Translations under genes and position numbers: made by a program
Source of the DNA: Chelativorans sp. AA-79
GTDB taxonomy: Bacteria; Pseudomonadota; Alphaproteobacteria; Rhizobiales; Rhizobiaceae
Reading direction: 5' to 3'
Assembly: GCF_029457495.1 (NCBI RefSeq)
Contig: NZ_CP120361.1
Location: 4,294,001-4,358,000 of the forward strand
DNA: 64,000 nt
Notes under the pieces: generated by a model
The model's input: only the letters and a program-made list of their open reading frames with translations
Database searches by the model: none
Told to the model about the DNA's origin: nothing
Shown here: piece by piece, positions 32,404-56,243 of the stretch
Layout: every line of letters begins with the position of its first letter
Numbering within the stretch: the first letter of the stretch is position 1

Positions 32404-32417
32404 TTGTTCTAGCGCAA
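32404..32417. promoter_or_regulatory. Crp/Fnr-type box TTGTTCTAGCGCAA
   Basis: TTG-N8-CAA inside the larger partial palindrome CTTTG...CTAG...CAAAG (32402-32419). It lies 134 bases before the haem operon (minus strand) and 184 before the DUF454 gene (plus strand). Confidence 0.6.
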
Positions 32418-32600
32418 AGACGAAGCGAAAATGGCGTGGAAGCCGCTCAACATGACAATGTTCAATGAAGGCAGAAGATTAGGAATGAGGGAACGGATTC
32501 AAGATGCCAGCGGATGGGGCACCGGGCCCATATGCATCGCGGGCGATCGACTGCCGTCCCGTGTATTCTCAGACATTCGCGTCCAGCGAGCGGCAAGCGG

Positions 32601-32981
32601 ATGACCCTTCGACTCGTCTGGATACTTGTGGGTGTTGCGGCGACCGCATGCGGCGTTGCGGGGGCCGTGTTACCGCTCCTGCCCACCACGCCCTTCCTGC
32701 TCGTTGCTGCCTACGCCTTCGCCCGCTCCTCGCCGCGCCTTCACGCATGGCTGCTTGGCCATCCGTATCTCGGCCCCCTCATCTCCAACTGGCAGCGGCA
32801 TGGCAGCATCGATAACCGCATCAAACGTGCAGCGATCACGGTAATGATCGCAACCTTCACATTGTCCTGGCTGCTCGGCGTATCGGCCACGGTGCTTGCC
32901 ATCCAGGCGGTCGTTCTGAGTGGAGCCGCTGCATTCGTACTGACGCGCCCGAGCGGATCCCGTGGACAAAACGACGACTAG
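32601..32981 (+). CDS. DUF454 (YbaN-like) inner-membrane protein
   Basis: 126 residues from the ATG at 32601. Three or four hydrophobic segments and the pattern GVAGAVLPLLPTTPFLLVAA, then FARSSPRLHAWLLGHPYLGP, define the YbaN/DUF454 family. Its function is unknown, but it is often near haem or anaerobic genes in alphaproteobacteria. It diverges from the haem operon across a 330-bp region holding a Crp/Fnr box. Confidence 0.85.
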   Translation: MTLRLVWILVGVAATACGVAGAVLPLLPTTPFLLVAAYAFARSSPRLHAWLLGHPYLGPLISNWQRHGSIDNRIKRAAITVMIATFTLSWLLGVSATVLAIQAVVLSGAAAFVLTRPSGSRGQNDD

Positions 32982-33117
32982 CACTCGGTCGTCCGCCACT
33001 GTTTCGCGCCCATTGTTCGACGCCCTTTCTCAGGCGCGCCACCATGAGCACCTCTCGCCGTACAATCGAGACACTCTGTCGCAGCGCATCGAAAAAGCGA
33101 TATGCGGGCACCGTTAT

Positions 33118-33131
33118 TTGCTGCGGCGCAA
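33118..33131 (+). promoter_or_regulatory. Crp/Fnr-type box TTGCTGCGGCGCAA
   Basis: TTG-N8-CAA centred about 72 bases before the nirV ATG. That spacing suits a class II activator site if transcription starts about 30 bases before the ATG. Confidence 0.65.
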
Positions 33132-33196
33132 AATACGATGTCTGCAGTGATGCATTCGTTGGTCGTCAAGCTAAGAACTAGCGATTGGAGACGACA

Positions 33197-34033
33197 ATGC
33201 TCATCGCCGTCGAACCACCTGGCGTCGTGCGTGTCGAGCCCGGCACTTTCGCCTATCGGGTTGCCGGCGACTTCACCAGCGACGGTCGATCTGTCAATGC
33301 ACCGCTTGTCAGAATGCGGATCGACTATCCCCTCACGATCATGAAGACACAGGTGAGCGCGGCGGATTTCGACCGTTGCGTCGCGGACGAAGCCTGCCAA
33401 CCTCGGGATGCCGGGTCCGGGCGGCCCGACCTTCCGGCCGTGGGCGTAAGCTGGCTGGACGCTACCGCCTATGCCAGATGGCTGTCTGAGAAAACAGGAT
33501 GGCACTGGCGCCTGCCCACCGATGAGGAATGGTCGTTCGCCGCCGGCTCTCGACTCAAGGACGATGTCCTTGTCGCCGACGCGACCGGCGGTTTTGCCGA
33601 GCGCTGGCTTGCAGAATACGATGAGGAAGCGCGTCGCAAGAGCCTGGGAGAGAAGGCGCCGCGCCCCTTCGGTTCCTTTGGTGCGAACGAGAACGGCCTT
33701 CTCGACATAGCCGGCAATGTCTGGGAATGGACGGACACCTGCTTCATTCGTCAGGCTCTCGATGAGAGAGGTACGCCCGAAGGCGCCCCGACCGTCAATT
33801 GCGGTGTGCATGTCGTGGCCGGCGAACACCGCAGCTATATCTCCGATTTCATCCGCGACGCGAGATCGGGCGGGTGCTCCGTCGGCACGCCGCCGGCCAA
33901 TCTCGGTTTCAGGCTTGTGCGGGAGGGCCCAGACGAAAAGGGATCACTTCTTTCGCGTCTGCTCGCTCGCATCCGGGCAGGAACCGGCCGTCCTGGCTTT
34001 CGGCCCTGGCATGAGTGGCCGAGGGTCGAGTAG
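33197..34033 (+). CDS. nirV: NirV, formylglycine-generating-enzyme-like protein
   Basis: 278 residues from the ATG at 33197 (GGAG upstream); 33185 is an alternative. The SUMF1/FGE fold is evident: MKTQVSAADFDRCV, VGVSWLDATAYARWLSEKTG, WRLPTDEEWSFAA, FGANENGLLDIAGNVWEWT and the closing LGFRLVRE. NirV usually follows nirK in denitrifiers, but its role is unsettled. nirK is not in this window, so here nirV has its own promoter with a Crp/Fnr box. Its last 90 bases overlap the end of the opposite-strand Crp/Fnr gene. Confidence 0.82.
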   Translation: MLIAVEPPGVVRVEPGTFAYRVAGDFTSDGRSVNAPLVRMRIDYPLTIMKTQVSAADFDRCVADEACQPRDAGSGRPDLPAVGVSWLDATAYARWLSEKTGWHWRLPTDEEWSFAAGSRLKDDVLVADATGGFAERWLAEYDEEARRKSLGEKAPRPFGSFGANENGLLDIAGNVWEWTDTCFIRQALDERGTPEGAPTVNCGVHVVAGEHRSYISDFIRDARSGGCSVGTPPANLGFRLVREGPDEKGSLLSRLLARIRAGTGRPGFRPWHEWPRVE

Positions 34034-34753
34034 ATCATGAACGTCTCGGAGACGCTGAGTTCCCTCGCTGGCTATAAGGGCGAGCTGATGGGGTTCCCGC
34101 ACAATGACCTTGCGTCTTCCGCTCGCAACGAGGCCGCGTCCCTCCCAAGCGCTGAACGTGCGGCTCACCGTGTGGAGCGTCGTGCCCGTCATCTCGGCGA
34201 GATCCTGCCGGGAGAGCGGGAAGGCAAGTTCGATTCCCCTCGCTGTGCGTCTGCCGGCCTGCCGGATCAGACGCAAAACGGTTCGGGCGATGCGGTGCTC
34301 GGCATCTTCGGTGGAGAGCTCCGTGAGGCGCTGCTGCATTTCATGATAGCGCTGGCCCAGGATATTCAGCGCGTTCATGGCAACTACGGAGTGGCAGGCC
34401 ATGATCTGCCGGATGGCGTTCCGAGACCAACCGATGAGATGGCTTTCCTTGACCGCCACGACGGTCGCCGGATGATACTGGTCGCCGCTCAGCACCGCAT
34501 GGCCGGCAAGCCCGCCCGGTCCGAGATAACGCAGGATCAACTGGTGGCCGCAGGGTGTCGTTTGCGTGGTCCGCAGGTGCCCGCCAAGCACTATGTATAA
34601 GGTTGTCGCTTCATCGCCTTGATGAAAGATCGGTGCATGTTGAGTGGCGTGCACAGGGAAGCCGAGGGCCTGGATATCCTTAAGGACCTCGTACGGGACA
34701 TCGTGAAAGAGTTCCGCCTGATTGAGGATATCGAGAGCTGAAAGACACTCCAT
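33944..34753 (-). CDS. Crp/Fnr-family regulator (NnrR/Dnr-like), first copy
   Basis: 269 residues. Cyclic-nucleotide-binding-like beta-roll (about 20-130), a long dimer helix, then the helix-turn-helix RQDLAEMTGTTLHTVSRTF near residue 195. There is no cluster of N-terminal Cys as in FNR, so it should not carry an Fe-S cluster. It groups with NnrR/Dnr-type NO sensors or FixK by sequence style. The divergent alternative-oxidase gene and this gene share the palindromic box at 34833. It is a paralogue of the regulator at 39045. Confidence 0.88.
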   Translation of the reverse strand: MECLSALDILNQAELFHDVPYEVLKDIQALGFPVHATQHAPIFHQGDEATTLYIVLGGHLRTTQTTPCGHQLILRYLGPGGLAGHAVLSGDQYHPATVVAVKESHLIGWSRNAIRQIMACHSVVAMNALNILGQRYHEMQQRLTELSTEDAEHRIARTVLRLIRQAGRRTARGIELAFPLSRQDLAEMTGTTLHTVSRTFSAWEGRGLVASGRRKVIVREPHQLALIASEGTQRLRDVHDLLDPRPLMPGPKARTAGSCPDASEQTRKK

Positions 34754-34832: not shown

Positions 34833-34846
34833 TTGTCCGGGGACAA
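34833..34846. promoter_or_regulatory. Crp/Fnr-type box TTGTCCGGGGACAA
   Basis: Part of an 18-bp palindrome (34831-34848) with 8-base arms CTTTGTCC and GGACAAAG. It lies between the divergent Crp/Fnr and alternative-oxidase genes, so autoregulation plus control of the oxidase is likely. Confidence 0.7.
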
Positions 34847-35017: not shown

Positions 35018-35677
35018 ATGTTGGACGTCAACAAATACGATCTCAACCGTCATCGCGAACCGGTCACCTTCAGGGACCAGGTGGCGACCGGCATTTCATG
35101 GGCGATGGGATCAACAGCAAACTTGCTGTTCGGGCGCCGCTATGGTGACCGCGCAGCGGTACTTGAAACGATTTCGGCCGTGCCGGGCATGGTGGCGGCA
35201 ACGTTGCTGCATCTCAGGTGCCTGCGCCGTATGACCGATGACCGGGGCTGGGTCCGCGTGTTCATGGACGAAGCCGAGAACCAGCGCGCCCACCTCATGG
35301 CATTTGTCGCAATCCGGCGGCCAAGCAGCGTGGAGCGTTTGCTTATCGTCCTTGCCCAGGGTGCCTTCTACAACGCGTTCTTCCTGCTCTATCTACTTTC
35401 CCCACGAACGGCTCACCGGCTGGCCGGCTATCTCTCGGAAGCTGCGGTACGCGGCTACTCCCACTGCCTTGAGCGCCTCGAACGAGGCGAGCAGGAGGAT
35501 GTTGCCGCCCCTGCCTCTGCCATTGCCTACTGGAACCTCGATCCGCAGGCGCGGCTTAGCGACGTGATCGTGGCCATGCGCGAGGACGAGGCGATCCATC
35601 GCGATATCAACCACGCCTTCGCCGACGCGCTTGCGGCAGGCAATCCCGTTCCGGATCGATCACGTACCGGAATGTGA
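35018..35677 (+). CDS. Alternative-oxidase-like di-iron protein
   Basis: 219 residues. The alternative oxidase pattern is clear: LETISAVPGMVAATLLHLR, GWVRVFMDEAENQRAHLM, LSEAAVRGYSHCLE and AMREDEAIHRDINHAF. These proteins oxidise ubiquinol with oxygen in a cyanide- and NO-resistant way. Two membrane-surface hydrophobic helices are present. The second ligand motif reads NQRAH in place of NERMH, so one canonical Glu ligand is Gln. It stands divergent from a Crp/Fnr gene and before hemN. Confidence 0.82.
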   Translation: MLDVNKYDLNRHREPVTFRDQVATGISWAMGSTANLLFGRRYGDRAAVLETISAVPGMVAATLLHLRCLRRMTDDRGWVRVFMDEAENQRAHLMAFVAIRRPSSVERLLIVLAQGAFYNAFFLLYLLSPRTAHRLAGYLSEAAVRGYSHCLERLERGEQEDVAAPASAIAYWNLDPQARLSDVIVAMREDEAIHRDINHAFADALAAGNPVPDRSRTGM

Positions 35678-35711
35678 TCGACCTCAGCCAGATTCCCAAA
35701 TCTCACCGACC

Positions 35712-35725
35712 TTGCGGCAGAGCAA
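35712..35725 (+). promoter_or_regulatory. Crp/Fnr-type box TTGCGGCAGAGCAA
   Basis: TTG-N8-CAA about 250 bases before hemN. The distance is long, so the transcript would carry a long leader; weaker than the other boxes. Confidence 0.45.
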
Positions 35726-35973: not shown

Positions 35974-37329
35974 ATGACGCGTTTCGATCCCACTGCCCGC
36001 TTCCAGCAGGAACGGCTGCCGCGCTATACAAGCTATCCGACCGCCCCGCATTTCTCCGATGCGATATCGCAAGAGACCTACGGAAGATGGCTCGCCTTCA
36101 TGCCAGGAGGTGTCAGCGGCTCGCTCTATGTGCACATTCCATTTTGCCGGTCGATGTGCTGGTACTGCGGGTGTCATACAACCATTACCAAGCATGATGC
36201 ACCGATTGACGACTACCTCTCGATATTGACACGCGAGATCAATCTCGTAGCCGATCGCATCGGGCAGATCTTTCCGGTACGTCATGTCCATTTCGGAGGT
36301 GGTACCCCGACGATCATGGCGCCGGGATCGTTCGTCGAACTCGTCACACTCATTAGAAAGAGGTTTCCTTTTGCTGCGGACGCTGAAATCGCCGTCGAAA
36401 TCGACCCACGCACGCTGAGCGACACAACGGTCTCGGCCCTCAGCGCAGCCGGCGTTACGCGAGCAAGCCTCGGTGTCCAAAGCCTGGATCCTGTGGTTCA
36501 GAGGGCAGTCAATCGCGTACAAGATCTCGACCAGATCGCTCGCGCGACTGAAGATCTGCGGAACGCAGGTATTTCCGGTGTGAATTTCGACCTCATTTAT
36601 GGGCTGCCGCACCAAACCGTAGTGTCGTGTGTGGAGACAGTCCTGCAGTGTGTTGCGCTGCGCCCTGACCGATTCGCAGTGTTCGGCTACGCGCATGTTC
36701 CACAGTTCAAGAAACATCAGCGCAAGATCGATGAAGCCACACTTGCCGACAGTACGGGTCGCCTCGCGCAAGCGGAAGCAATCGCGGCTCTGTTGATGGA
36801 AGCGGGCTACAAGCGGATCGGCTTCGATCACTTCGCCCTACCCGACGATGCCATAACACGAGCGCAATCGAGCGGACGGCTCCGTCGGAATTTTCAAGGC
36901 TACACCACCGATCCAGGCGACGTTTTGATCGGCTTCGGGGCATCTGCGATCGGGCGACTCTCCCAAGGCTACGTGCAGAACGAAGTCGCACTGCCCCGCT
37001 ATGCCGAGCGTATCGCCAGAGGCGAGCTCGCGACATCGAAGGGATACGCCCTGACAGCCGACGATCGCCTTCGGGCCGAAGTCATCGAACGCCTCATGTG
37101 CGACTTTCGCGTCGATGTGGACGAAGTGTGCCGGAAGCACGCCGTGCGACCCGACGTCTTGCTGCACGCGAATCAGCGGTTGTGCGATCTGGTCGCCGAG
37201 GGGCTCGTGGAGATCGACGGACCCATCATTTCCGTCTCTGAAGAGGCTTCCATTCTGGTGCGCAGCGTCGCATCGGCCTTCGACGCTTATCTCGGGTCGT
37301 CAAACAGACCCTACAGTCGTGCCGTGTGA
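35974..37329 (+). CDS. hemN: Oxygen-independent coproporphyrinogen III dehydrogenase
   Basis: 451 residues, full length. N-terminal PRYTSYPTAPHF and radical SAM CRSMCWYCGC (Cys58, 62, 65, with Cys67) match true HemN. The GGGTPTIMAP and GVNFDLIYGLPHQT motifs and the HemN C-terminal domain (about 370-430) are present. It makes protoporphyrinogen IX without oxygen, needed for haem of nitrate and NO reductases. The 296-bp upstream region holds one Crp/Fnr-type box and no convincing gene. Confidence 0.94.
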   Translation: MTRFDPTARFQQERLPRYTSYPTAPHFSDAISQETYGRWLAFMPGGVSGSLYVHIPFCRSMCWYCGCHTTITKHDAPIDDYLSILTREINLVADRIGQIFPVRHVHFGGGTPTIMAPGSFVELVTLIRKRFPFAADAEIAVEIDPRTLSDTTVSALSAAGVTRASLGVQSLDPVVQRAVNRVQDLDQIARATEDLRNAGISGVNFDLIYGLPHQTVVSCVETVLQCVALRPDRFAVFGYAHVPQFKKHQRKIDEATLADSTGRLAQAEAIAALLMEAGYKRIGFDHFALPDDAITRAQSSGRLRRNFQGYTTDPGDVLIGFGASAIGRLSQGYVQNEVALPRYAERIARGELATSKGYALTADDRLRAEVIERLMCDFRVDVDEVCRKHAVRPDVLLHANQRLCDLVAEGLVEIDGPIISVSEEASILVRSVASAFDAYLGSSNRPYSRAV

Positions 37330-39044: not shown

Positions 39045-39764
39045 ATGGCGCATCAACATATCCGCGACGATGTCCTGCCCGGCCTCGACCGCGCCTTGCT
39101 TCGTGGGTTCGGATTGTTCGAGGCGATGAGCGAGTCGGAGTTGGAGAACATCCTGCGCCCGGCCCGAGTGCGCCGGGTTCAACAAGGCCAAGCTGTATTC
39201 CGGCAAGGGGATGCAGCTCGTCACTTCTATCTGCTGCTCCAAGGCCGACTGAAGGTCGTGCAGGTGACTGAGGAAGGCCACCAGATTGTCGTCCGCATCG
39301 TTAATCCGGGCGAACTGTTCGGTGTCGCCAAGGCATTGCGCCGCACGGACTATCCGGGCACGGCGATGGCGGTGCTGGAGAGCACGGCTTTGGCATGGAA
39401 CTCCGCGTTGTGGGACGACATGACGGAGCATCATCCGGCGCTCACGATGAATGCCTTGCATATGGTCGCCCGGCACCTGCAGGAGCTTCATGCGCGGGTC
39501 AGGGAGCTTTCGACGGAAGACGTCGAACGCCGCATGGCGCATGCGCTGGTGCGGCTGTCGATGCATGCGGGTCGCCGTACAAAAGACGGGATCCTGATCG
39601 ACTTCCCCGTAACCCGCCAGGACATCGCGGAGATGACGGGAACCACGATCCCGACGGTGAGCCGCATTCTCGGTAGCTGGGCGGAACGAGGCCTCGTTGA
39701 AATCGGGCGTCTGCGTATCGTGCTCCGCGAGCCTCACAAGCTGTTCGATCTGGCGAGGCGGTAG
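39045..39764 (+). CDS. Crp/Fnr-family regulator (NnrR/Dnr-like), second copy
   Basis: I start at 39045 after TGGAGTGA, giving 239 residues; 38997 (GTG) and 39003 are alternatives. An effector-binding beta-roll (FEAMSESELENILRPARVRR, VFRQGDAARHFYLLLQGRL) precedes the helix-turn-helix RQDIAEMTGTTIPTVSRIL. The protein contains no Cys, so no Fe-S cluster. It resembles the Dnr/NnrR group that senses NO through haem. It lies just upstream of the nor region and is a good candidate for the TTG-N8-CAA boxes. It is a paralogue of the gene at 33944. Confidence 0.88.
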   Translation: MAHQHIRDDVLPGLDRALLRGFGLFEAMSESELENILRPARVRRVQQGQAVFRQGDAARHFYLLLQGRLKVVQVTEEGHQIVVRIVNPGELFGVAKALRRTDYPGTAMAVLESTALAWNSALWDDMTEHHPALTMNALHMVARHLQELHARVRELSTEDVERRMAHALVRLSMHAGRRTKDGILIDFPVTRQDIAEMTGTTIPTVSRILGSWAERGLVEIGRLRIVLREPHKLFDLARR

Positions 39765-40353: not shown

Positions 40354-40367
40354 TTGCGCCACGACAA
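40354..40367. promoter_or_regulatory. Crp/Fnr-type box TTGCGCCACGACAA
   Basis: Lies 64 bases before norE on the plus strand and 66 before the 51-residue gene on the minus strand, so it could serve both promoters. Its arms TTGCG/GACAA resemble the R. sphaeroides NnrR box. Confidence 0.7.
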
Positions 40368-40430: not shown

Positions 40431-41030
40431 GTGGCCAACATCGAAGACAACCTGAAAAGCCCGGAGCATGCTGGCGCAGCGCACGGAGAGTGGAGCGCGC
40501 TGTCGGATTTGCCCGGACATCCGATGATGTGGGTCCTGATTTTCAGTGAACTGGTCGCTTTCGGCGTTATGCTGGTCGCCTTCTCCGTAGCGCGGGCGGC
40601 GCTTCCGGCGCTCTTCGCCGCCGGGCAGGCCACGCTTGATCCTTTCGTCGGCGGCTTCAATACGGTCGTGCTCGTAACAAGCGGCTGGCTTGCCGCCTGG
40701 GCGGTGCGCGCGCGGGTGGACGGCCGCGGATCAACCTCGAGTTTTGCTCTTGTCGGCGCTATCTTTTTCGGTTTGGTCTTCGTGGCAGTGAAGCTCTTCG
40801 AGTACGCGGCGAAGGTCGAGGCGGGCATCGGCCTGGAGACCGATACGTTTTTTACGCTCTATTTTCTCATCACGGGGTTTCACCTGCTGCATGTGCTGCT
40901 CGGCATTGTCATCCTCGGCGTCGTCGCCTTTTCGGGCACCGTCGAAGCCCTACGAACCGGTGCGGCCTTCTGGCATATGGTGGACCTCGTCTGGGTCGTC
41001 ATGTACCCGCTGATCTATCTGGTGGGATGA
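40431..41030 (+). CDS. norE: NorE, cytochrome c oxidase subunit III-like protein
   Basis: 199 residues from a GTG start. Five hydrophobic helices; HPMMWVLIFSELVAFGVMLV, the Glu in KLFEYAAK and FHLLHVLLGIVIL match the subunit III family as NorE. NorE is not catalytic but helps NO reductase activity or assembly. The next gene is norF. Confidence 0.9.
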   Translation: MANIEDNLKSPEHAGAAHGEWSALSDLPGHPMMWVLIFSELVAFGVMLVAFSVARAALPALFAAGQATLDPFVGGFNTVVLVTSGWLAAWAVRARVDGRGSTSSFALVGAIFFGLVFVAVKLFEYAAKVEAGIGLETDTFFTLYFLITGFHLLHVLLGIVILGVVAFSGTVEALRTGAAFWHMVDLVWVVMYPLIYLVG

Positions 41031-41037
41031 GGTGGTG

Positions 41038-41304
41038 ATGCCGTTCGATCTCGCGCGCAGCTGGGGCATCCTCGTCGTCCTGAGCCTGCTGAGCCTGTTG
41101 GGCAGCCACATCGCGTGGCCTGCACTCGCGGCTAACGCCGCCGTTCTCCTGCTCGGAATCGGCAAAGCGCGACTCATCCTGCTCGACTTCATGGAATTGC
41201 GGCATGTCCCGCGTTCCTGGCGCGCAGTCTTTGCGTGGTGGCTCGGGCTCATTGCCGCGACAGCGTGGATCACGCCTCTTTGGCCAATCCTCTGGATGCA
41301 TTGA
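41038..41304 (+). CDS. norF: NorF small membrane protein
   Basis: 88 residues from the ATG at 41038; GTGs at 41032 and 41035 are in frame. Three hydrophobic segments with KARLILLDFMELRHVPRSWR, a pattern of NorF and cytochrome oxidase subunit IV-like proteins. It follows norE by 7 bases. It is an accessory of nitric oxide reductase. Confidence 0.85.
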   Translation: MPFDLARSWGILVVLSLLSLLGSHIAWPALAANAAVLLLGIGKARLILLDFMELRHVPRSWRAVFAWWLGLIAATAWITPLWPILWMH

Positions 41305-41324: not shown

Positions 41325-41338
41325 TTGTTCCAGAACAA
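41325..41338 (+). promoter_or_regulatory. Crp/Fnr-type box TTGTTCCAGAACAA
   Basis: Perfect arms TTGTT/AACAA, 112 bases before norC. It shows that norCBQD has its own promoter rather than depending on norEF. A GC-rich hairpin (GCCCC/GGGGC around 41400) lies between the box and norC. Confidence 0.7.
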
Positions 41339-41902: not shown

Positions 41903-41916
41903 ACGAGGAGCGAAAC

Positions 41917-43263: not shown

Positions 43264-43330
43264 AAAATCAGGCGGCGCGCGCGCTGTCGCCCCGCTTCTC
43301 CCGACCCTGCCAGTGACGAAGGACCCAGCG

Positions 43331-44146: not shown

Positions 44147-44152
44147 GGCACC

Positions 44153-47698: not shown

Positions 47699-47931
47699 CC
47701 CACCGATGTCAGAGCTTTCCGATATCGCGATTCCTCCCTCTTCTGCGGTACAATTGCCTTTCCTGCGCAGTAATAAGCGCCAACGATCCCCCCGGCTGCT
47801 ACCGCAACCCAATCCGGCGATGGCCAGCCATTTATGGCGGTGCATGCCCCTTGAACTGCTGCTGGAGTTCCTCCTCAACCACGGTTGAGGGGATTGGTAA
47901 CCCAATTCGCTGACTGCCGGTTTGCGCTGCG

Positions 47932-47945
47932 ACAAAGTCAGTGGA
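47932..47945 (+). promoter_or_regulatory. Crp/Fnr-type box TTGCGCTGCGACAA
   Basis: Centred about 62 bases before the nnrS start at 48001. Ten of 14 bases match the box before norE, including both arms TTGCG/GACAA. Apart from the box, the 302-bp gap 47699-48000 shows nothing clear. Confidence 0.7.
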
Positions 47946-48000: not shown

Positions 48001-49233
48001 ATGCCCGATTTCCGCGAGCGCTGCCCGCGCGTCTCCGCTTTCTTGCCCGCTGCTCAAGCATCGGCGGCGAAAGACGCGCCCAGTCGTTCAATGGCGCTGC
48101 TCAGCTATGGTTTCCGGCCGTTCTTCCTTGGTGCGAGCGTGTGGGCCATCCTGTCGCTTGCGCCATGGATCGGAGTCGGCATTGGCTGGGTATTTGCGGA
48201 AGGTTACGGACCCGTAGCATGGCACGTCCACGAAACCTTGTTTGGCTTTTGTGGCGCGGCGGTGGCCGGTTTCCTGCTGACAGCGATCCCAAATTGGACG
48301 GGACGTCCGCCGCTCACCGGTATCCGGCTTGCGGCTCTCTTTGCGTTATGGTGCGCTGGGCGTGCGGCCGTCCTTGCTCTCTATGCGTTCGGTCCATTAG
48401 CCGTCGCCGCAGTCGACGGCGCCTTTCTTCCCGTACTCACATGGCTGGCCGCGCGGGATGTCGTCGCTGCCCGCAATTGGCGAAATCTGAAGACCGTTGC
48501 GCTTCTTGGCTTGTTCGCCGCGGCCAATATCGGTTTTCACTACGAGTCCCTGATCGGTGGCGCTCGGGACCAGTCGACCCGCCTCGGCATTGCGGCGCTG
48601 ATCGGTCTCATGATGCTGATCGGGGGCCGCATGGCACAGAATTTCACGCATCAGTGGATGCTTGCCCGGGGAGCGGATCGACTTCCGCCGCCGTTCGGCC
48701 GCTTTGACGAGGCAGCGCTTGTCGTAGCGGGAGCGGGCCTGCTCCTGTGGGTTTTGCGAACCCACGGCATGGCAACGACCTTGCTGCTGGCTCTGGCGGG
48801 CGTTCTGCAGTTGCTGCGCATGAGCCGATGGAGGGGGCTGTCCACGTGGCGCGAACCGCTCGTTCTGATTCTGCATCTCGGCTATGCGTTTGTCGCTCTC
48901 GGCTTTTTGCTTGTGAGCGCTTCCATGATCTTTCCCGATGTGGTCCCACCAACTGCTGCACTCCATGCCTGGACGACCGGCGCAATCGGCACGATGATGC
49001 TCGGTGTGATGACACGGGCATCGCGCGGGCATACGGGGCGGCCGTTCACCGCTTCAGCTCTGACGACGGGGAGCTATGTGGCCGTTGTTCTCGCGGCGCT
49101 TCTCCGGATTGGGGCGGGTATGCTTCCTCCGATCGAGCTCTTGCTCGTCACGGCCGCAGCGATCGCATGGATGGCCGGCTTCTTACTGTTCATGATCGAA
49201 CATGCTTTGATGCTGGTGCGTAATCAGACTTAG
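48001..49233 (+). CDS. nnrS: NnrS family haem/copper-binding membrane protein, second copy
   Basis: 410 residues from the ATG at 48001; 48091 is an alternative start. About twelve hydrophobic helices. NnrS-type features are LSYGFRPFFLGASVWAIL, WHVHETLFGFCGAAVAGFLL, IPNWTGRPPLTG, GGRMAQNFTHQWM and GVMTRASRGHTGRP. This is a more typical NnrS than the copy at 18591, which lacks the FRPFF start. It is linked to NO tolerance and probably induced through the box upstream. Its 3' end overlaps the opposite DUF6455 gene by 4 bases. Confidence 0.92.
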   Translation: MPDFRERCPRVSAFLPAAQASAAKDAPSRSMALLSYGFRPFFLGASVWAILSLAPWIGVGIGWVFAEGYGPVAWHVHETLFGFCGAAVAGFLLTAIPNWTGRPPLTGIRLAALFALWCAGRAAVLALYAFGPLAVAAVDGAFLPVLTWLAARDVVAARNWRNLKTVALLGLFAAANIGFHYESLIGGARDQSTRLGIAALIGLMMLIGGRMAQNFTHQWMLARGADRLPPPFGRFDEAALVVAGAGLLLWVLRTHGMATTLLLALAGVLQLLRMSRWRGLSTWREPLVLILHLGYAFVALGFLLVSASMIFPDVVPPTAALHAWTTGAIGTMMLGVMTRASRGHTGRPFTASALTTGSYVAVVLAALLRIGAGMLPPIELLLVTAAAIAWMAGFLLFMIEHALMLVRNQT

Positions 49234-49553
49234 CAGCCTTGACGATCCCGGTGCCTCCCTTGATCCGCATGCCGCTCGGTATGGCGCCGTGCAGCCTTAT
49301 TGGTCGCACACGCTGCAAAATGGCCGGCATTGGGGCAGAAGGACGGCGGCCTATTTACGCGTATCCGATCAGCGGTCTCAATCCACTGCCGACATGCTTC
49401 CCCTTGTCGGCAAAAGAAGCATGCACGAGCAACCGCCTCCACGGTCAAGCCGCAACGGTCGTGCGCCAGCCTTTCTATATCAACCTCGCAACGCTCCATC
49501 ATCTCGCGGAGGTTGTTGCCGCGAAGCTCGAGACCCGAAAAGAAACCGTTCAT
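49230..49553 (-). CDS. DUF6455-type four-Cys protein, second copy, end of ubiTUV operon
   Basis: 107 residues; the ATG overlaps the ubiV stop (ATGA). The DUF6455 pattern is seen: MMERCEVDIERL, ACFFCRQGEACRQWI, PPSFCPNAGHF. A His/Arg-rich tail follows. Co-translation with ubiTUV suggests a role with the anaerobic quinone pathway or its Fe-S proteins, which is inference. Confidence 0.75.
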   Translation of the reverse strand: MNGFFSGLELRGNNLREMMERCEVDIERLAHDRCGLTVEAVARACFFCRQGEACRQWIETADRIRVNRPPSFCPNAGHFAACATNKAARRHTERHADQGRHRDRQGC

Positions 49554-50518
49554 GGACTCCTCCCTGCGGTTGCTTGGCAGCGTGCACCGGCAAGCGCTTC
49601 CCCGCTTTGCGCCGAAGCAAAATCGGCACCGCAGGCACCCGCCAGAAATCCGTTTGCGAAGGTCGCCTCGGGCATCATCATTGCCAATCGGCTGACTGCC
49701 TCCGCGCCTTCGAGATTCCCGTCCAGCACGCGCCGAAAGAGCTCTGTGACGGCCACCATGTCACCGCTGTGCGGCGACAGGCGGAACGACGTAACGCCGA
49801 CTGCGCACAGGCGATCGAGGTCACCCAGGAGATTGCAATGAGTGAAGGAAAGTGTCTGCACGCCGTTGATGGCGAGGAAATCCTCACCGTCGAGCGTTTC
49901 CACCTTCAGCCCGTCCGGGTCCTCGCCACAGACGAACCGGCAATTATCCTTGGTCAGGCCGTGGACGCGCGCGTGGTAGCAGCGTCCGGAGATGGCAAGC
50001 GGTACGCGACCGAATGCCCACACCTCCGGCGCGACACCACAAGACGCCGCCGCCCCGGCAAGCGTCTCGATGGAAGACATCGGCAGCTCGGGTGGGAGAC
50101 ACAGCCGGCTCGCGCCTCGTTTTGCGAGATAGTCGAGTGTACCTTCGTTGTAGACGTTGACCAGCGGGCCGATTACGAAGGGCCGGCCCCTGGGCAGATG
50201 GGCGAGTATGGTCAGGTCGTTGACCTCGATCTCCAGATCGCCGCTTGCGACCAGATCGGCGCACATCTGTCGCTCGCGCTTCAATGTAACCAGGGCCAGC
50301 GAGGAAAGGATGACCTGCTTACCGGCCCTGTGAAGCCGCTCGATGGCGTCGGGTATCCTGTCGACATAGAAGGGCATCCGCTTGGAGCAGACCACCTCGC
50401 CGAGACAGACGCGATCGACCGGCGCCTCGTCGGCGATGCGGGCATAGTAGTCGCTCCATTGGTCGGCCGTCCAGTTGAAGAGCAGCGGGCCAAGGGTAAT
50501 TGTGGGGCGTTCTGTCAT
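49550..50518 (-). CDS. ubiV: UbiV, oxygen-independent ubiquinone hydroxylation protein
   Basis: 322 residues from the ATG at 50518, with GGGGGAA upstream. U32 peptidase-like fold. Four Cys that would hold a 4Fe-4S cluster are at 38, 180, 193 and 197; the last three match E. coli UbiV numbering exactly. With UbiU it hydroxylates the quinone ring without oxygen. ubiU ends 13 bases upstream. Confidence 0.93.
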   Translation of the reverse strand: MTERPTITLGPLLFNWTADQWSDYYARIADEAPVDRVCLGEVVCSKRMPFYVDRIPDAIERLHRAGKQVILSSLALVTLKRERQMCADLVASGDLEIEVNDLTILAHLPRGRPFVIGPLVNVYNEGTLDYLAKRGASRLCLPPELPMSSIETLAGAAASCGVAPEVWAFGRVPLAISGRCYHARVHGLTKDNCRFVCGEDPDGLKVETLDGEDFLAINGVQTLSFTHCNLLGDLDRLCAVGVTSFRLSPHSGDMVAVTELFRRVLDGNLEGAEAVSRLAMMMPEATFANGFLAGACGADFASAQSGEALAGARCQATAGRSP

Positions 50519-50531
50519 GTGGATTCCCCCA

Positions 50532-51527
50532 TCAGCGCCAAGTCTTGCGGTAAGCACCGGCGGTCGTCATCTGCCCCTCGCTCAGGCGCCGGAGTTCGCC
50601 TGCGGGAATGGAATTGCCGGCGGCTTGCGCATCCACGGCGCGGCGAAAGCTCGCCACCACATCGCGAATGTAGGAGCGACTGCGCTGGCGGCCTTCGATC
50701 TTGAGCGCAGTGACGCCGGCACGTGCGAGTTCGGGGATCAGTGTCGCGGCATCGAGGCTCACCGGGTCTTCGAAGACATGGCCGCGCTTACCGCCAACGG
50801 AGAAGCAACCCTTGCACAGCGTAGGATAGGGCGCCGGTTCATCCTTCGGGACGCGGTCGATGGTGAATTCGCCAAGGCGCGAGACGAGCTCGCCACCTTC
50901 CTCCTGGTAGTGGACATGGCTTGCCGGCGAGCAGACACCGTTCATATTGGGCGACTTACCGGTGGCGTAGGAGGAGAGCGAACAGCGCCCCTCGGCCATG
51001 ACGCACAGGCCACCGAAGACGAAGACCTCCGTCTCGCACGGCACTTCCCGGTTGATGGCGGCGATCTCGGCCACGGTAAGGACGCGTGGCAGCACCACGC
51101 GCTTCACACCGAATTCTTCCACATAGAAGCGGATGGTATCGGCGTTCGACGCCGCTGCCTGCACGGAGAGGTGACGCCTCAAGTTCGGGTGTCGTTCGGC
51201 AGCATAGGCGATGAGGCCGATATCGGCGAGGATGACGGCATCCGCCCCGGCGCGGGCCGCCTGATCGACAGCCCCGTGCCAGATCTCGGCAGCGCCCGCA
51301 CGCGGAAAAGTGTTGATGGCGACGAGAATGCGCGCGCCCTTTGCATGGGCATAGGCGGCACCCCGTGCCAACTCCTCGGGCGAGAAATTGAGACCGGGAA
51401 AATTGCGCGCATTGGTCTCGTCGCGAAAACCGCAATACACGCTGTCCGCTCCGGCATCCACGGCCGCGCGGAGCGCGGCCGGCGTGCCAGCCGGGCATAC
51501 AAGTTCGAGCCTGTTGGCGTTTCCCAT
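50532..51527 (-). CDS. ubiU: UbiU, oxygen-independent ubiquinone hydroxylation protein
   Basis: 331 residues. U32 family start RLELVCPAGTPAALRAAVDA. Cluster Cys at 175, 182, 199 and 238 are each offset by 6 from E. coli UbiU Cys169, 176, 193 and 232, so all ligands are kept. It acts as a heterodimer with UbiV. The gene lies 3 bases after ubiT. Confidence 0.95.
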   Translation of the reverse strand: MGNANRLELVCPAGTPAALRAAVDAGADSVYCGFRDETNARNFPGLNFSPEELARGAAYAHAKGARILVAINTFPRAGAAEIWHGAVDQAARAGADAVILADIGLIAYAAERHPNLRRHLSVQAAASNADTIRFYVEEFGVKRVVLPRVLTVAEIAAINREVPCETEVFVFGGLCVMAEGRCSLSSYATGKSPNMNGVCSPASHVHYQEEGGELVSRLGEFTIDRVPKDEPAPYPTLCKGCFSVGGKRGHVFEDPVSLDAATLIPELARAGVTALKIEGRQRSRSYIRDVVASFRRAVDAQAAGNSIPAGELRRLSEGQMTTAGAYRKTWR

Positions 51528-51530
51528 TTT

Positions 51531-52079
51531 TCAGTCCCTGTCCCAGCGCGTCAGTGTGAGACCGGTCAGCCGGGAGGCCATCGGCATGATGTGCCGGGCG
51601 ATGCGCTCCACGCTGGCGCCTGCCGGACCGAAGATGGATGTTGCCTCCGCGAGGAGATCGAGTTCGGCATCGTCCAGAGCATTGCGCAACGCCAGCACGG
51701 CCTCTGTGTCGCCCTCGATGATGATGTCGCGGGAGAAGAACAGCGCGTCGCCGTCGGCCGCACCATGGACCAGGCCGAGGAGCGCGCCGAGCGTGCCGGC
51801 GATGCGTACGTCCCACGCGCCGGCGACCTCGCGGCGGCACGATTCGATATGCGGATGGTCCCGGCGAGGTTCAAGTCGGAAGACGAAGGGGAGATCGGTC
51901 GGATCGAGAAGAAAGACCTTCTCGGTATGGACCCCGAGCCGAGCGAAGAGCCCGGGCTGTCGCCGGCCCACGCTCTTCGCCATTTGTCGCAATAGCAGGC
52001 CGAGGGGCGGAAGCGGCAAGGGCAGCAGGAAGAGCCGAACACCCGTCGGCAGGGGAGCAAAGTCGGTAGGATGGTTCAT
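51531..52079 (-). CDS. ubiT: UbiT, SCP2-domain lipid-binding protein
   Basis: 182 residues starting at 52079; 52091 is an alternative. An amphipathic start (VRLFLLPLPLPPLGLLL) precedes an SCP2 lipid-binding domain (WDVRIAGTLGALLGLVHGA, DALFFSRDIIIEGDTEAVL). UbiT holds the lipophilic quinone intermediates in the anaerobic pathway. First gene of ubiTUV, divergent from ubiD over a shared Crp/Fnr box. Confidence 0.9.
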   Translation of the reverse strand: MNHPTDFAPLPTGVRLFLLPLPLPPLGLLLRQMAKSVGRRQPGLFARLGVHTEKVFLLDPTDLPFVFRLEPRRDHPHIESCRREVAGAWDVRIAGTLGALLGLVHGAADGDALFFSRDIIIEGDTEAVLALRNALDDAELDLLAEATSIFGPAGASVERIARHIMPMASRLTGLTLTRWDRD

Positions 52080-52113
52080 ACCGGACAGCATGCAGGGAAA
52101 GGCCGCACCGTCA

Positions 52114-52127
52114 TTGCGCCAGCGCAA
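52114..52127. promoter_or_regulatory. Crp/Fnr-type box TTGCGCCAGCGCAA
   Basis: Arms TTGCG/CGCAA are perfectly complementary. It sits in the 95-bp gap between divergent ubiT and ubiD (35 bases from ubiT and 47 from ubiD), so one site could switch on both arms of anaerobic quinone synthesis. Confidence 0.75.
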
Positions 52128-52174
52128 AGACGGCAGGAGTTTCGTACCCTCATGGAAGGTTCAAGGAGATGCTT

Positions 52175-53713
52175 GTGCCCATCCGAGACTTTCCCCCCTT
52201 TCGTGACCTGCGCGATTTTCTCGGCCATCTGGCGGAGGCGGACGATCTCGCCCGCATTTCAGAGCCCGTGTCGCTTGTCCACGAGATCACCGAAATCCAT
52301 CGCCGCGTGATTGCGGGCGGCGGACCGGCGCTCTGCTTCGAGCATGCGCGTGACGCCTCCGGGCAACGTGCTGCCGTGCCCGTCATCGTCAACCTGTTCG
52401 GTACTACGCGAAGGGTCGCGGCCGGCTTCGGAGTCCGACCGGAGCGCCTTCCTGTGCTTGGACAGGCGCTTGCCGCGCTACGAGGGCCGCAGCCCCTGAA
52501 CGGCGTTCGCGATGCGGTGAACCGCTGGCCGATGCTCAAGGCCGCCCTGCGGACGCGCGCCCAGACAATAGCCCGCCCGCCGGTGCAAACCGTGGTGCGC
52601 AGAGGCGCCGAGGTGAGCTTAAGGGACCTGCCGATCCAGACTTGCTGGCCCGCCGAGCCGGCGCCGCTCATCACCTGGCCGCTGGTGATTACCCGCTCGC
52701 CAGATGCCGACCCCGCAGATAGCGCCGGCCTCAACATCGGTGTCTACCGGATGCAGGTGCTCGATCGCGACCGCTTGATTATGCGCTGGCTGGCCCATCG
52801 CGGCGGCGCCGCCCATCACCGCGCCTGGGCGGGGCAACGGAAAGAAATGCCGGTCGCTGTTGCCATCGGCACCGACCCCGCCACCATGTTGGCCGCGGTC
52901 ATGCCATTGCCCGAGAATCTTTCGGAACTGAGCTTCGCCGGGCTGCTGCGCGGGGAGCGGCCACGCGTGGCGTCGGCCGTCAGCGTGCCGCTCATGGTGC
53001 CGGCCGATGCGGAGATCGTGATCGAAGGCTGGGTCTCCGCAACCGAGACGGCGCCGGAGGGACCCTATGGCGACCACACCGGCTACTACAACGGGATAGA
53101 GGAATTCCCCGTGATGCGGGTGACTGCGATCACGACCCGCCGCGATCCGCTCTATGTCTCCACTTTCACCGGCCGGCCACCGGACGAACCTTCGGTGATA
53201 GGGGAAGCGCTGAACGAACTCGTCCTGCCTCTCATCCGCCAGCAGATACCGGAGATTGCCGATCTCTATCTCCCGCCGGCCGCCTGTTCGTACCGGCTGG
53301 CGGTGGTCGCTATCCGCAAGCGCTATCCTGGCCAGGCGCGACGGGTGATGGCGGCACTGTGGGGGATGCTTCCCCAGTTCAGCTACACCAAGGGCATCGT
53401 CGTGGTGGACGACGATATCGACGTGAAAAGCGGTGCGGATGTGCTTTGGGCCGTCTCGACGCGGGCGGACCCGTCGCGCGATCTCATGCTCATGGAACGC
53501 ACGCCGATCGATTACCTCGACTTCGCCTCGCCGGAGCCGGGCCTGGGCGGCAAGCTCGGCATCGACGCGACGAACAAGATCGGTGCGGAGACGCGCCGCG
53601 AGTGGGGTCGGCCGCTCGCCATGTCCGTCGACATCTCCGCACGGATCGACGCGCTCTGGCCCCGTCTTGGCTTGCGCATGGATAAACCTGAAGCGGAAGG
53701 GGGAGTGAGATGA
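52175..53713 (+). CDS. ubiD: UbiD-family decarboxylase
   Basis: I prefer the GTG at 52175, which lies 6 bases after AAGGAG; the ATG at 52169 directly abuts that site. 512 residues. The UbiD signature ETAPEGPYGDHTGYYNGIEE is present near the middle, as are the prenyl-FMN domain regions. UbiD decarboxylates polyprenyl-hydroxybenzoate using prenylated FMN from UbiX, and the adjacent ubiX overlaps its stop. The pair with ubiTUV gives the anaerobic quinone module. Confidence 0.9.
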   Translation: MPIRDFPPFRDLRDFLGHLAEADDLARISEPVSLVHEITEIHRRVIAGGGPALCFEHARDASGQRAAVPVIVNLFGTTRRVAAGFGVRPERLPVLGQALAALRGPQPLNGVRDAVNRWPMLKAALRTRAQTIARPPVQTVVRRGAEVSLRDLPIQTCWPAEPAPLITWPLVITRSPDADPADSAGLNIGVYRMQVLDRDRLIMRWLAHRGGAAHHRAWAGQRKEMPVAVAIGTDPATMLAAVMPLPENLSELSFAGLLRGERPRVASAVSVPLMVPADAEIVIEGWVSATETAPEGPYGDHTGYYNGIEEFPVMRVTAITTRRDPLYVSTFTGRPPDEPSVIGEALNELVLPLIRQQIPEIADLYLPPAACSYRLAVVAIRKRYPGQARRVMAALWGMLPQFSYTKGIVVVDDDIDVKSGADVLWAVSTRADPSRDLMLMERTPIDYLDFASPEPGLGGKLGIDATNKIGAETRREWGRPLAMSVDISARIDALWPRLGLRMDKPEAEGGVR

Positions 53714-54273
53714 ATGCACGTGTCGTCGTCGGTATCAGCGGTGCGTCGGGTGCGGCCATCGGTGCGCAGGTGGTACAGATTCTGGCAGGCCTCGGCGCCT
53801 GCGTCGATCTCGTCATTTCGTCTGCCGCCGAGCAGACCATCGTTGAGGAACTGGGGCCGCATGCGCTGACCGCGATGAACGATCTGCCCGCGCGCCGCCA
53901 CAGCGCCTTCAATGTTGGCGCCGATATCGCCTCGGGCTCCACGCCGACATCCGGCATGATCGTCGCGCCATGTTCGATGCGGACGCTGTCGGCCATCGCC
54001 CACTCGCTCTCGGACAATCTTCTTGTCCGTGCCGCTGACGTGCACCTGAAGGAACGCCGCCCGCTCATCCTGATCGCCCGCGAGATGCCGCTTCACCTCG
54101 GACACTTGAGGGCAATGACGGCGGTCACCGAGATGGGTGCAATCGTCATGCCGCCGGTTCCGGCCTTCTACTTGCGTCCTCGTGACATAGATGACGTAAT
54201 CGACCAGATCGCGCGTCGGGCGGTCGATTTGCTGCGCATCGCGCCGGCGACTGCGCAGGTATGGCAGGGTTGA
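53710..54273 (+). CDS. ubiX: UbiX flavin prenyltransferase
   Basis: 187 residues. N-terminal VVGISGASGAAIG, APCSMRTLSAIAHSLSDNL and ERRPLILIAREMPLHLGHLR are classical UbiX/Pad1 motifs. It joins dimethylallyl phosphate to FMN to make the UbiD cofactor. It overlaps the ubiD stop (ATGA). Confidence 0.94.
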   Translation: MNARVVVGISGASGAAIGAQVVQILAGLGACVDLVISSAAEQTIVEELGPHALTAMNDLPARRHSAFNVGADIASGSTPTSGMIVAPCSMRTLSAIAHSLSDNLLVRAADVHLKERRPLILIAREMPLHLGHLRAMTAVTEMGAIVMPPVPAFYLRPRDIDDVIDQIARRAVDLLRIAPATAQVWQG

Positions 54274-54396
54274 CTTCTAGCTTACCAATTGAAGGCGCCA
54301 TCGCGGACGAATGAAGTGGCGTTGAGGATCGTTGGCGCTCAGTCTTCGTTGACTCTGTTTCTCCCGAGTAGACCCCATTTTTGAATCGTAGTCTTT

Positions 54397-54410
54397 TTGA
54401 TCTCCCTCAA
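54397..54410 (+). promoter_or_regulatory. Crp/Fnr-type box TTGATCTCCCTCAA
   Basis: FNR/FixK-style arms TTGAT..TCAA lie about 100 bases before the chosen FixL start at 54504. This argues against the earlier in-frame TTG at 54381. Confidence 0.6.
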
Positions 54411-54503
54411 GGTCGCGGCCCACGATCTGGAACAAGTAGATATTTGAGCCTTCAGGCTCCCGTTAACTTTGACCTGCGCTCCCCGTGCGGGAGGACCGCC
54501 CAA

Positions 54504-55969
54504 GTGACTGTGGATACGGCAATACGAGTGCGGCTCATACGCTATTGGGCAGCGATCGGCATGGCATTGGCCGCCTTTGCCATTCGATTGGGCCTAGATC
54601 CCCTTCTGGGCGTCCACGCGCCGTTCCTGTTCTTTTTACCGACTGTAGTGATTGCAGCGGCCATCGGGGGCCTGAGACCCGGCCTGCTTGCTAGCACCCT
54701 GGGCTTCCTCGGCGGGATGGCATTTGTGCCACTCGATGATGGCTTGGCCTTCGAAGAGTCCGTTAATGTTGCTGCCTACTGGGGAATGTGCCTACTGCTC
54801 GTCTGGTTCGGTCAACGACTGCACGGGGCACAGCAGCACGCTACCTCGCGCGCGAGCGAACTCGCTGCGCGGGAAGCGCATCTACGATCAATCCTAGATA
54901 CCGTACCCGACGGGATGATCGTCATCGACGAGCACGGAATCATTCAGTCGTACAGTCGAGCAGCAGAACGTTTGTTCGGCTATGCGGCTGAGGAGATGAT
55001 CGGTCGAAACGTGTCGATGCTGATGCCCCTTCAGTTCCAGAAGGAGGATCGTGGAAGCACCGTGCAGCATCTCGCAGCCGTAATGCAGCGCGTGCAGCAA
55101 AAAGGGGGAGTGGTCGATGGAGTGCGCAATGATGGCACGACATTCCCGATTGAGCTTTTCGTCGGGGAAATGACCATTGATGACAAGCGCTTCTTCACCG
55201 GTTTTGTACGTGATCTGACCGAATGGCGGGAAATGAGCTGCGCATGCAGGAGTTGCAGGCTGAACTGGTACACATCTCAAGACTGACGGCGATTGGCGAG
55301 CTAGCGTCAAGCTTGGCGCACGAGCTTAATCAACCACTGGCGGCAATCGGCAATTACCTTAGTGGCGCGCGTCGCCTCTTGAGTAAGCCCTCCGCGGGAA
55401 ACGTGATTCTGCTGGAATCTGCAATCGGCGAAGCCACCGATCAGGCATTGCGGGCTGGTGATATTATTCGCCGGCTTCGCAAGTTTGTGTCCCGTGGCAG
55501 GAGTGAGCGTAAAGTCTGCAGCCTCTCGAAGATTATGGAGGATGCTGGAGCGCTCGCTCTGATTGGGGCGAGAGAACAGGGAGCAGCCATCTGTTTCAAT
55601 CTCGATGCGGCAGCCGACCGTGTTTTCGCTGACCGTGTTCAAGTGCAACAGGTTCTCATTAATTTGATCCGCAACGCGATTGAGGCAATGGAGACATCCG
55701 AGCGCAAGGAGTTGATCGTATCCTCGCGAGCGAAGGGGGACGGGTGGCTGGAAATCAGCGTCTCCGATACCGGCCCTGGACTGGCCGGTGAAGTGGCCGA
55801 TCGGCTGTTCCAGTCATTCGTGACAAGCAAGCCGGCGGGAATAGGTGTTGGACTGTCGATCTGTCGGACAATTGTAGAAAGTCATCGGGGGAAGATATGG
55901 GCTGAGTCTCCACCGGAGGGCGGTTGCGTATTCCGCTTTACACTCCCCCAGGTCCGAGAGGATGCCTAA
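54504..55969 (+). pseudogene. fixL: fixL-like sensor histidine kinase, frameshifted and without haem ligands
   Basis: The GTG at 54504 follows GGGAGGA by 8 bases. The first frame (to 55286) has four hydrophobic segments and a PAS domain (ILDTVPDGMIVIDEHG, ERLFGYAAEEMIGRNV, DGTTFPIELFVGEM). The reading then shifts; the rest is in another frame (ELRMQELQAELVHISRL, HAELN-type box AHELNQPLAAIGNYL, N-box, DTGPG, GVGLS). Adding one A to the AAA at 55231-55233 restores a continuous FixL. The residues aligned with B. japonicum FixL His200 and Arg220 are Asp and Gly, so haem oxygen sensing should be lost. No fixJ is adjacent. A sequencing error at the A-run cannot be excluded. Confidence 0.8.
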
Positions 55970-56214
55970 ACAGCGACTGAGCCGATTATTTTTATATTCT
56001 CTACTCTGGGCGCGGCTGAGGAATGCTCGGGAGCACAAGGCTCAAGACTACCGGGCGCCCATTTCAGTCCGCAAGCGCTATCCCGGATAGCAACTAACCG
56101 CGATGATTCCCCTTGGAGGAAAGCTTCCCAAGCCCCTTGCCCAAGATGATCGCGCTCGCGGAATTCAATGGAATGACTCGGAATGGACCCGGGCTGCGAC
56201 AATTTGGTGCGTCT

Positions 56215-56228
56215 TTGCGACAGTCCAA
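56215..56228 (+). promoter_or_regulatory. Crp/Fnr-type box TTGCGACAGTCCAA
   Basis: First of two boxes before narK; less symmetric than the second. Its 3' end is one base from the next box, so only one site may be occupied at a time. Confidence 0.5.
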
Positions 56229-56229
56229 C

Positions 56230-56243
56230 TTGATCTGGCGCAA
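56230..56243 (+). promoter_or_regulatory. Crp/Fnr-type box TTGATCTGGCGCAA
   Basis: One half-site is FNR-like (TTGAT) and the other is like the nor/ubi boxes (CGCAA). Centre about 82 bases before the narK ATG. The rest of the 349-bp gap 55970-56318 shows no gene. Confidence 0.65.

Follow-up and report, generated by a model that had tools for sequence, protein, structure and literature searches.

What kind of regulator do the repeated TTG-N8-CAA boxes between the anaerobic operons of Chelativorans sp. AA-79 serve, and which genes do they hold together? The boxes lie in a denitrification cluster within a 64,000-nt stretch of contig NZ_CP120361.1 (positions 4,294,001 to 4,358,000; the window), which also contains a Crp/Fnr regulator gene (crp1) beside a gene for an alternative oxidase (AOX)-like protein. 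TTG-N8-CAA was found 18 times in the 64-kb window, compared with a mean of 9.64 and a largest value of 16 in 100 dinucleotide shuffles. Coding and noncoding DNA were separated by our own gene calls, and gene identities were taken from family searches. The noncoding DNA between 28.0 and 56.4 kb (3,816 nt) contained 11 sites, while 2,000 mononucleotide shuffles of the same 3,816 nt gave a mean of 0.62 and a largest value of 5. In this DNA, TTG ranked first of the 64 half-sites at spacing 8 (the runner-up had 4 sites), and spacing 8 stood out among the TTG/CAA spacings from 3 to 15 (next best, 3). An earlier sequence-only reading had listed eleven boxes, all of which exist and are intergenic; ten were placed exactly, and the one given at 47932 lies ten bases away at 47922. 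Its estimate of under about 3 kb of intergenic DNA was too low, but the density is indeed far above chance, and an arm TTGCG or CGCAA was counted in 8 of the 11 boxes instead of seven. Matches beyond that list lie between genes at 3053, 19993 and 24879, within genes at 29314, 35021 and 46698, and at 49607.

The published NnrR motif is ctTTGcgnnnncgCAAag, found upstream of most denitrification genes analysed (nir, nor, nos, nnrS) and with candidate sites at hemN (Rodionov 2005, PMC1274295), and NnrR of B. diazoefficiens has sites before norE, norC and hemN1 (PMC6710368). The window boxes match this consensus (PMC1274295). Besides the TTGCG/CGCAA arms, 12 CAAAG-flanked rows were found in the window, and boxes precede nor, nnrS, hemN and nirV there and nirK in Chelatococcus. 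Among the 24 arms at 12 sites (the eleven listed ones and 49607), 20 were TTGC or TTGT, 3 TTGA and 1 TTGG; the FNR/FixK-like type TTGAT-N4-ATCAA did not fit, except for 54397 and one arm of 56230. As judged from the sequences, the repeated boxes are real and are a known kind of switch for denitrification genes, the regulation itself being predicted. It is probable (roughly 0.8) that they are operators of NnrR/DNR-type Crp/Fnr proteins, and that the cluster is a denitrification regulon mobile as a block and including the crp1/AOX-like module. A single anaerobic or nitric oxide (NO)-type Crp/Fnr regulon over the denitrification genes, as proposed earlier, is supported by the box density, the genomic confinement, the match to the NnrR consensus and the synteny with boxes in Chelatococcus.

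The box motif and most of the targets were already known from the published motif and target predictions. Dufour 2010 predicted that the DNR targets include NnrS, nitrate reductase, a nitrite transporter, a U32 peptidase (RSP0465) and a lipid carrier (RSP0466) (PMC2908626); by their place, RSP0465/RSP0466 are assigned here as ubiU and ubiT. The cluster thus resembles the alphaproteobacterial NnrR regulon (PMC1274295, PMC6710368) in the box ctTTGcgnnnncgCAAag, in the nor, nnrS, hemN and nir targets and in a regulator without FNR-type cysteines, and it resembles the DNR/FNR core regulons (PMC2908626) in NnrS, nitrate reductase, the nitrite transporter, ubiU/ubiT and an FnrL site at ubiT/ubiD. 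Unlike the NnrR regulon as published, it adjoins conjugation genes, belongs to a genome with three NnrR-group paralogues, and includes ubiTUV/ubiDX and an AOX-like partner; the term 'alternative oxidase' is absent from the main text of PMC2908626.

The genome (5.76 Mb, three contigs) was scanned with two forms of the box, TTG-N8-CAAAG and TTGY-N6-RCAA, each against a control. The genome-wide scan suggested by the sequence-only reading gave 81 rows of TTG-N8-CAAAG against 80 in the mirrored control, so that no overall excess was seen, but the rows were concentrated in the cluster and one other island: 12 rows (10 sites) in the window, 12 (10 sites) in C1:1558001-1618000, and 57 in the other 5,638 kb. 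This second island of 60 kb was delimited after the rows had been seen. When only rows with a pyrimidine (C or T) as fourth base of each arm were counted, there were 10 in the window, 3 in the second island and 18 in the rest; none of these 18 outlying strict rows (10 inside genes, 8 intergenic) preceded a denitrification gene, the translations being judged by eye without a family search. TTGY-N6-RCAA gave 176 sites genome-wide against 159 in the control, and 12 of the 18 window matches were of that type. The second island carries FixL-like, cbb3 oxidase, arginine deiminase and NirK genes and a Crp/Fnr gene. By hand count, its 25 intergenic TTG-N8-CAA boxes have TTGA in both arms (14), one arm (7) or neither (4), and three of the four TTGA-free boxes lie at nirK, at the Crp/Fnr gene and near the heavy-metal ATPase genes of the cbb3 cluster. 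The two arm classes, compared between the second island and the window, suggest that the genome maintains two box types, the window cluster having mainly the non-TTGA type.

A syntenic island was found on the plasmids pTAD1 of Chelatococcus daeguensis TAD1 (locus L323) and pCO-6 (L324), with norF-norE, DUF1858, a Crp/Fnr gene, nnrS, ubiVUT, ubiDX, nirK-nirV, crp1, the AOX-like gene and pseudoazurin. Seven boxes were present in L323:231-13258, all in the 1,138 noncoding nt and none in the 11,890 coding nt; they precede norE, crp/nnrS, ubiT/ubiD, nirK (two boxes), crp1/AOX-like and pseudoazurin. According to its record, strain TAD1 came from a power-plant biotrickling filter.

The inclusion of ubiTUV/ubiDX, which had also been proposed, is supported and is not new. 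UbiU was present in 77 of 297 order genomes, and in 48 of the 68 testable loci a box was found in the 160 nt before ubiT (9 of the 77 were excluded, having no ubiT match or under 160 nt upstream), compared with 19 for the best other half-site. The 48 boxed loci had TTGA in both arms (26), in one (15) or in neither (7). An FnrL site at RSP0466/ubiD has been reported in R. sphaeroides (PMC2908626), and ubiUVT of P. aeruginosa is controlled by Anr (PMC10247376). In the window, the box TTGCGCCAGCGCAA (52114..52127) separates ubiT from ubiD, at distances of 23 and 42 bp, respectively. The genes ubiV, ubiU and ubiT (49550..52091, minus strand; U32, U32 and SCP2 domains) were named by domains and by their order, which is identical in L323, and ubiD and ubiX follow at 52169..54273 on the plus strand.

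Haem salvage had been joined to the regulon as well, and for it no support was found beyond the single site at 32404, related hut loci lacking a comparable box. This NnrR-type box with a CAAAG flank (TTGTTCTAGCGCAA, 32404..32417) lies 134 bp before a doubtful open reading frame (ORF; 31902-32270, minus strand) and 184 bp before a DUF454 gene (32601-32981, plus strand); the distance to the TonB receptor start is about 590 bp, with the doubtful ORF between. HutW was found in 14 of 297 order genomes, Chelativorans included. Among 12 of the 13 other HutW genomes (7.0-7.5 kb each; G073 not included), no stretch contained a box whose arms are both TTG[CT], and haem-uptake membership was dropped. L258 has a TonB gene with a mixed-arm box 387 nt upstream, and four weak boxes occur in called-noncoding stretches of L249. 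Membership of fixL in one NnrR-type regulon is doubtful too: the box before it (TTGATCTCCCTCAA, 54397..54410) is FixK-like, and the FixL-like sensor gene is split by a frameshift into overlapping frames, 54504-55286 (PAS part) and 55223-55969 (kinase part). Because of this split the gene (54504-55969) is probably non-functional. An intact FixL-like gene is located in the second island (L033:15719-17107).

Three NnrR-group Crp/Fnr genes were found in the genome: Crp1 (33944..34753, minus strand), Crp2 (39045..39764, plus strand) and one beside nirK in the second island. Two had been counted before, and both are in the window; the third is of the same kind. Crp1 shares 40% and 38% identity with the others. 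A tree of 116 rows placed Crp1 in a 19-row, AOX-linked clade (98/99), Crp2 on a long branch in a 27-row clade (99/87), and the nirK-side regulator together with Mesorhizobium rows in a set of 19 (100/99), B. diazoefficiens being on a neighbouring branch. The group was named by gene neighbours and organisms, the tree having no experimentally tested NnrR among its rows. In L323 the Crp/Fnr gene next to nnrS showed 57% to the nirK-side regulator versus 52% to Crp2. The recognition helix contains LH in 95 of the 116 rows (TLHTVSR in Crp1), and IP was found only in Crp2 (TIPTVSR). The FNR-type cysteine set is absent from all three regulators, and Crp2 contains no cysteine. With its helix IP and zero cysteines, Crp2 might possibly have an altered DNA preference, perhaps for TTGTT/TTGTC arms. 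By kinship, the NnrR-group regulators would be sensors of NO.

The AOX-like gene proved to be a recurrent partner of crp1. The scan of a genome collection with the three regulators gave at least 536 relatives, of which the best 80 were kept. Seventeen of these best 80 were Crp1-clade loci (L161-L177), and an AOX gene lay beside crp1 in 14 of the 17; in L170 and L177 the sequence stops too close to crp1 for a judgement. No AOX was found in the stretch examined at the other 63 of the best 80, nor within 1.5 kb on each side in 28 of 29 order loci, the exception being L038 in G287, which belongs to the Crp1 clade. Searching with the AOX protein matched 38 of 385 genomes, and 2 of the 30 loci inspected (29 new ones and the window) were crp1-linked. 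AOX was present in 9 of 297 genomes of the order sample (2 crp1-linked) and in 19 of 398 of the phylum sample (3 linked, none beyond those already found); 7 of 21 AOX plasmid records were taken in. In total, 19 crp1-AOX loci were obtained, the 14 scan loci and five (the window, G287, G454 and two plasmids) that were found by the AOX protein search alone and all have crp1 adjoining.

In 17 of the 19 loci the interval next to crp1 contained a strict box. By a 300-nt rule applied alike to linked and unlinked loci, some of the latter being cut short upstream, a box preceded the AOX gene in 15 of 19 linked versus 4 of 49 unlinked loci (1/35 and 3/14). The linked loci without such a box were L168, L171, G287 and G454; the two weak boxes of the unlinked AOX of L101, at 308 and 323 nt upstream, fell slightly beyond the limit. 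In the window, the box TTGTCCGGGGACAA (34833..34846) lies between crp1 and the AOX-like gene (35018..35677, plus strand), 171 bp from the start of the latter and 80 bp from crp1. The crp1 gene and the divergent AOX-like gene are a recurrent pair that is new relative to the known regulon; no description of a Crp/Fnr-AOX pair or of the ligand changes below was found in the open-licence literature, subscription papers not being covered. In G287 a box TTGCGCTGCGACAA was observed between the AOX-like gene and nirK at L260:16266.

The AOX fold of the window protein was indicated by a PF01786 match, an AlphaFold model (pLDDT 84.6) and a Foldseek TMq of 0.83 to trypanosome AOX (5zdp, 3vv9). The metal ligands of trypanosome AOX are E123, E162, H165, E213, E266 and H269 (PMC9246349). 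Alignment to 3vv9 (offset 73, then 75) placed E50, Q89, H92, S140, E191 and H194 at 123, 162, 165, 213, 266 and 269, so that the window protein shares the fold and E123, H165, E266 and H269 with the trypanosome enzyme, and differs from it by Q and S in place of E162 and E213. Residues were compared in 67 sequences, 19 linked and 48 unlinked, excluding the fragmented L105/L106 (G280) and L329 (Photobacterium), which had no readable motif. Position 162 was Q in 19/19 crp1-linked and E in 48/48 unlinked proteins, and position 213 was A (17) or S (2) in the linked ones and E in 48/48 unlinked. None of the 19 linked proteins had all six ligands of alternative oxidases (E162→Q, E213→A/S); E123, H165, E266 and Y220 were retained in 19/19 and H269 in 18/19. 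T219 and Y220 are given in the trypanosome numbering. The third residue of the EEEA motif was variable in the linked set (A, R, Q, D, E), and four further canonical AOX from named plasmids retained NERMH and EEEA. The linked proteins formed one clade (100/100). The dN/dS of the AOX-like gene in four pairs was 0.09-0.13, implying that the gene is maintained under purifying selection. By these comparisons, the predicted NO-type regulon includes an AOX-like protein with a remodelled metal site, which, missing two metal-holding residues, may do something new.

On plasmids of Azospirillum and sphingomonads (L325, L326, L327, L328), canonical AOX genes have genes for haemoglobin, NO dioxygenase or flavohaemoprotein nearby, and two of them have an Rrf2-family regulator as neighbour; those of the Azospirillum and Sphingomonas plasmids adjoin Rrf2 regulators and truncated haemoglobins, and the Sphingomonas one also a flavohaemoprotein gene. 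NO defence is thus a setting of AOX elsewhere too, the present clade differing in regulator and metal site. An AOX-family gene with an NO-type regulator is likewise known from Vibrio fischeri, whose NO-responsive AOX is under NsrR (cited in PMC1274295, PMC6472365). However, NsrR is an Rrf2-family repressor, and the window gene has an NnrR-type Crp/Fnr gene as neighbour and encodes a protein without two of the iron ligands.

A mechanism can be proposed on these grounds. The regulators, having no Fe-S cysteines, would presumably be NO-responsive; NO from the resident NirK would bring them into the DNA-binding form, and their binding to TTG-N8-CAA would switch on nor, nnrS, hemN, nar/narK, ubiTUV/ubiDX and the crp1/AOX-like pair. 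The latter would be a module of its own, made up of a regulator gene, a divergent gene and a box between, with an AOX-fold product whose metal site appears remodelled. We infer the NO signal, the activation, the assignment of paralogues to boxes and any AOX-like activity from what was observed, namely box positions, enrichment, confinement, synteny with boxes elsewhere, the AOX-like clade and its residue changes.

Several observations weigh against the NnrR-type regulon with its AOX-like module. The box has only six fixed bases, and genome-wide it was about as frequent as in the mirrored control (81 versus 80; 176 versus 159), as chance matches would be; but with 11 local intergenic sites versus 0.62, no other comparable half-site or spacing and boxes at syntenic genes elsewhere, chance is hardly credible and is refuted at cluster level, single sites such as 32404, 49607 and 3053 apart, which may be accidental. 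The arm type before ubiT was not tied to an NnrR-like protein (two non-A arms in 4/26 loci with versus 3/22 without, p = 1.0; any non-A arm in 15/26 versus 7/22, p = 0.089). L162 is a Crp1-clade regulator without AOX within 20 kb, L168 has a NirK-like gene between the AOX-like gene and crp1, the box of L171 and the AOX-like start are 390 nt apart, and in G287 and G454 the space between the two genes is free of boxes even when one mismatch is allowed. Some linked loci are near-copies (L166/L167/L175, L165/L169, L323/L324), in the G287 protein a third ligand, H269, is replaced by Q as well, and the box at 34833, being nearer to crp1, may serve crp1 first. FixK could also bind the mixed boxes at 54397 and 56230, which have TTGA at both arms and at one, respectively. 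That the boxes as a whole are oxygen-type operators of FNR/FixK seems improbable: the TTGA arms before ubiT (both in 26/48, one in 15 more) and the FnrL site at RSP0466/ubiD (PMC2908626) point that way, but 20 of the 24 window arms are TTGC or TTGT, only 3 being TTGA and 1 TTGG, and the second island with fixL and cbb3 has TTGA in both arms of 14 of its 25 boxes, i.e. the genome keeps two types.

For the protein itself, we give slightly less than even odds to a component of NO metabolism or denitrification not described before. An AOX-fold clade that has lost two of its four glutamate ligands and is encoded next to an NnrR-type regulator and box of its own would then not be a normal quinol:oxygen oxidase; it might perform quinol-linked chemistry on NO or nitrite, or be a partner of the regulator for the quinol/NO state. 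It seems rather unlikely that it is an ordinary cyanide- and NO-resistant quinol oxidase in which other residues substitute for the two ligands. The fold (TM 0.83 to the trypanosome enzyme), the residues E123, H165, E266 and Y220 in 19/19 and H269 in 18/19, the canonical AOX genes near NO-defence genes and the induction of AOX by an NO donor in Sphingopyxis granuli (PMC6472365) would suit such an oxidase, but two of the four glutamate ligands are missing in 19/19 and the third residue of EEEA varies. Equally doubtful is a non-enzyme, a quinol- or metal-binding partner or sensor with retained fold: both ligand losses are complete across the clade, a third occurs in G287 and the pairing with the regulator gene is near-constant, but 18/19 retain four of six ligands and the conserved tyrosine, and the low dN/dS is compatible with non-enzyme and enzyme alike. 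An ordinary oxidase, a non-enzymatic partner and new N-oxide chemistry were rated about equally likely. As to the regulon, the data confirm and slightly extend the known scheme in which the pathways that make ubiquinone and haem without oxygen are switched on together with nitrate respiration. Should a diverged AOX, half of whose glutamate ligands are exchanged, indeed be retained for use with NO, the di-iron carboxylate family would gain a new function, and denitrification at the oxygen border a new participant, testable through the plasmid copy of C. daeguensis TAD1, and 'alternative oxidase' annotations beside Crp/Fnr genes should then not imply oxygen-consuming oxidases.

The other features of the cluster were as follows. 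The nirV-like gene (33197..34033, plus strand; FGE-sulfatase domain) has a box TTGCTGCGGCGCAA (33118..33131) 66 bp upstream and no adjoining nirK. In L161, L162, L164 and L323 nirK adjoins nirV, suggesting that nirK was lost next to the window nirV (33118-34033); a nirK is present in the second island. The gene hemN for oxygen-independent coproporphyrinogen III oxidase (35974..37329, plus strand) has the box TTGCGGCAGAGCAA (35712..35725) 249 bp upstream. The box TTGCGCCACGACAA (40354..40367) is located 64 bp upstream of norE, which with norF (COX3-like, COX4_pro) spans 40431..41304, and TTGTTCCAGAACAA (41325..41338) 112 bp upstream of norC; norC, norB, norQ and norD (41450..46063) were named by weak family matches and gene order, and a homologous cluster is present in L161. 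The box TTGCGCTGCGACAA (47922..47935) precedes nnrS (48091..49233) by 156 bp. All these nor and nnrS genes are on the plus strand. The box TTGCGCCGAAGCAA (49607..49620), within the 3' end of ubiV and 54 bp before a DUF6455 gene (49230-49553, minus strand), was outside the earlier list and may be a chance match. Two boxes 15 bp apart, TTGCGACAGTCCAA and TTGATCTGGCGCAA (56215..56243), lie upstream of narK (two transporter halves), narG and the start of narH (56337..63998, plus strand), narH being named by position alone.

Conjugation genes (trbB, trbE, trbJ, trbL, trbG and trbI) adjoin the denitrification cluster at 3184-12842, which suggests an integrative mobile element, whose ends were not found. 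A second nnrS occurs at 18591-19862, after an ABC transporter gene, and is followed by a box TTGCGCCAGGACAAAG (19993-20006) without a clear gene following. Upstream of the window, HasA-like haemophore, type I secretion-like, haem-oxygenase-like and further DUF454-like genes were recognized by eye (L308:7829-12890), and a box was observed at L308:13164.

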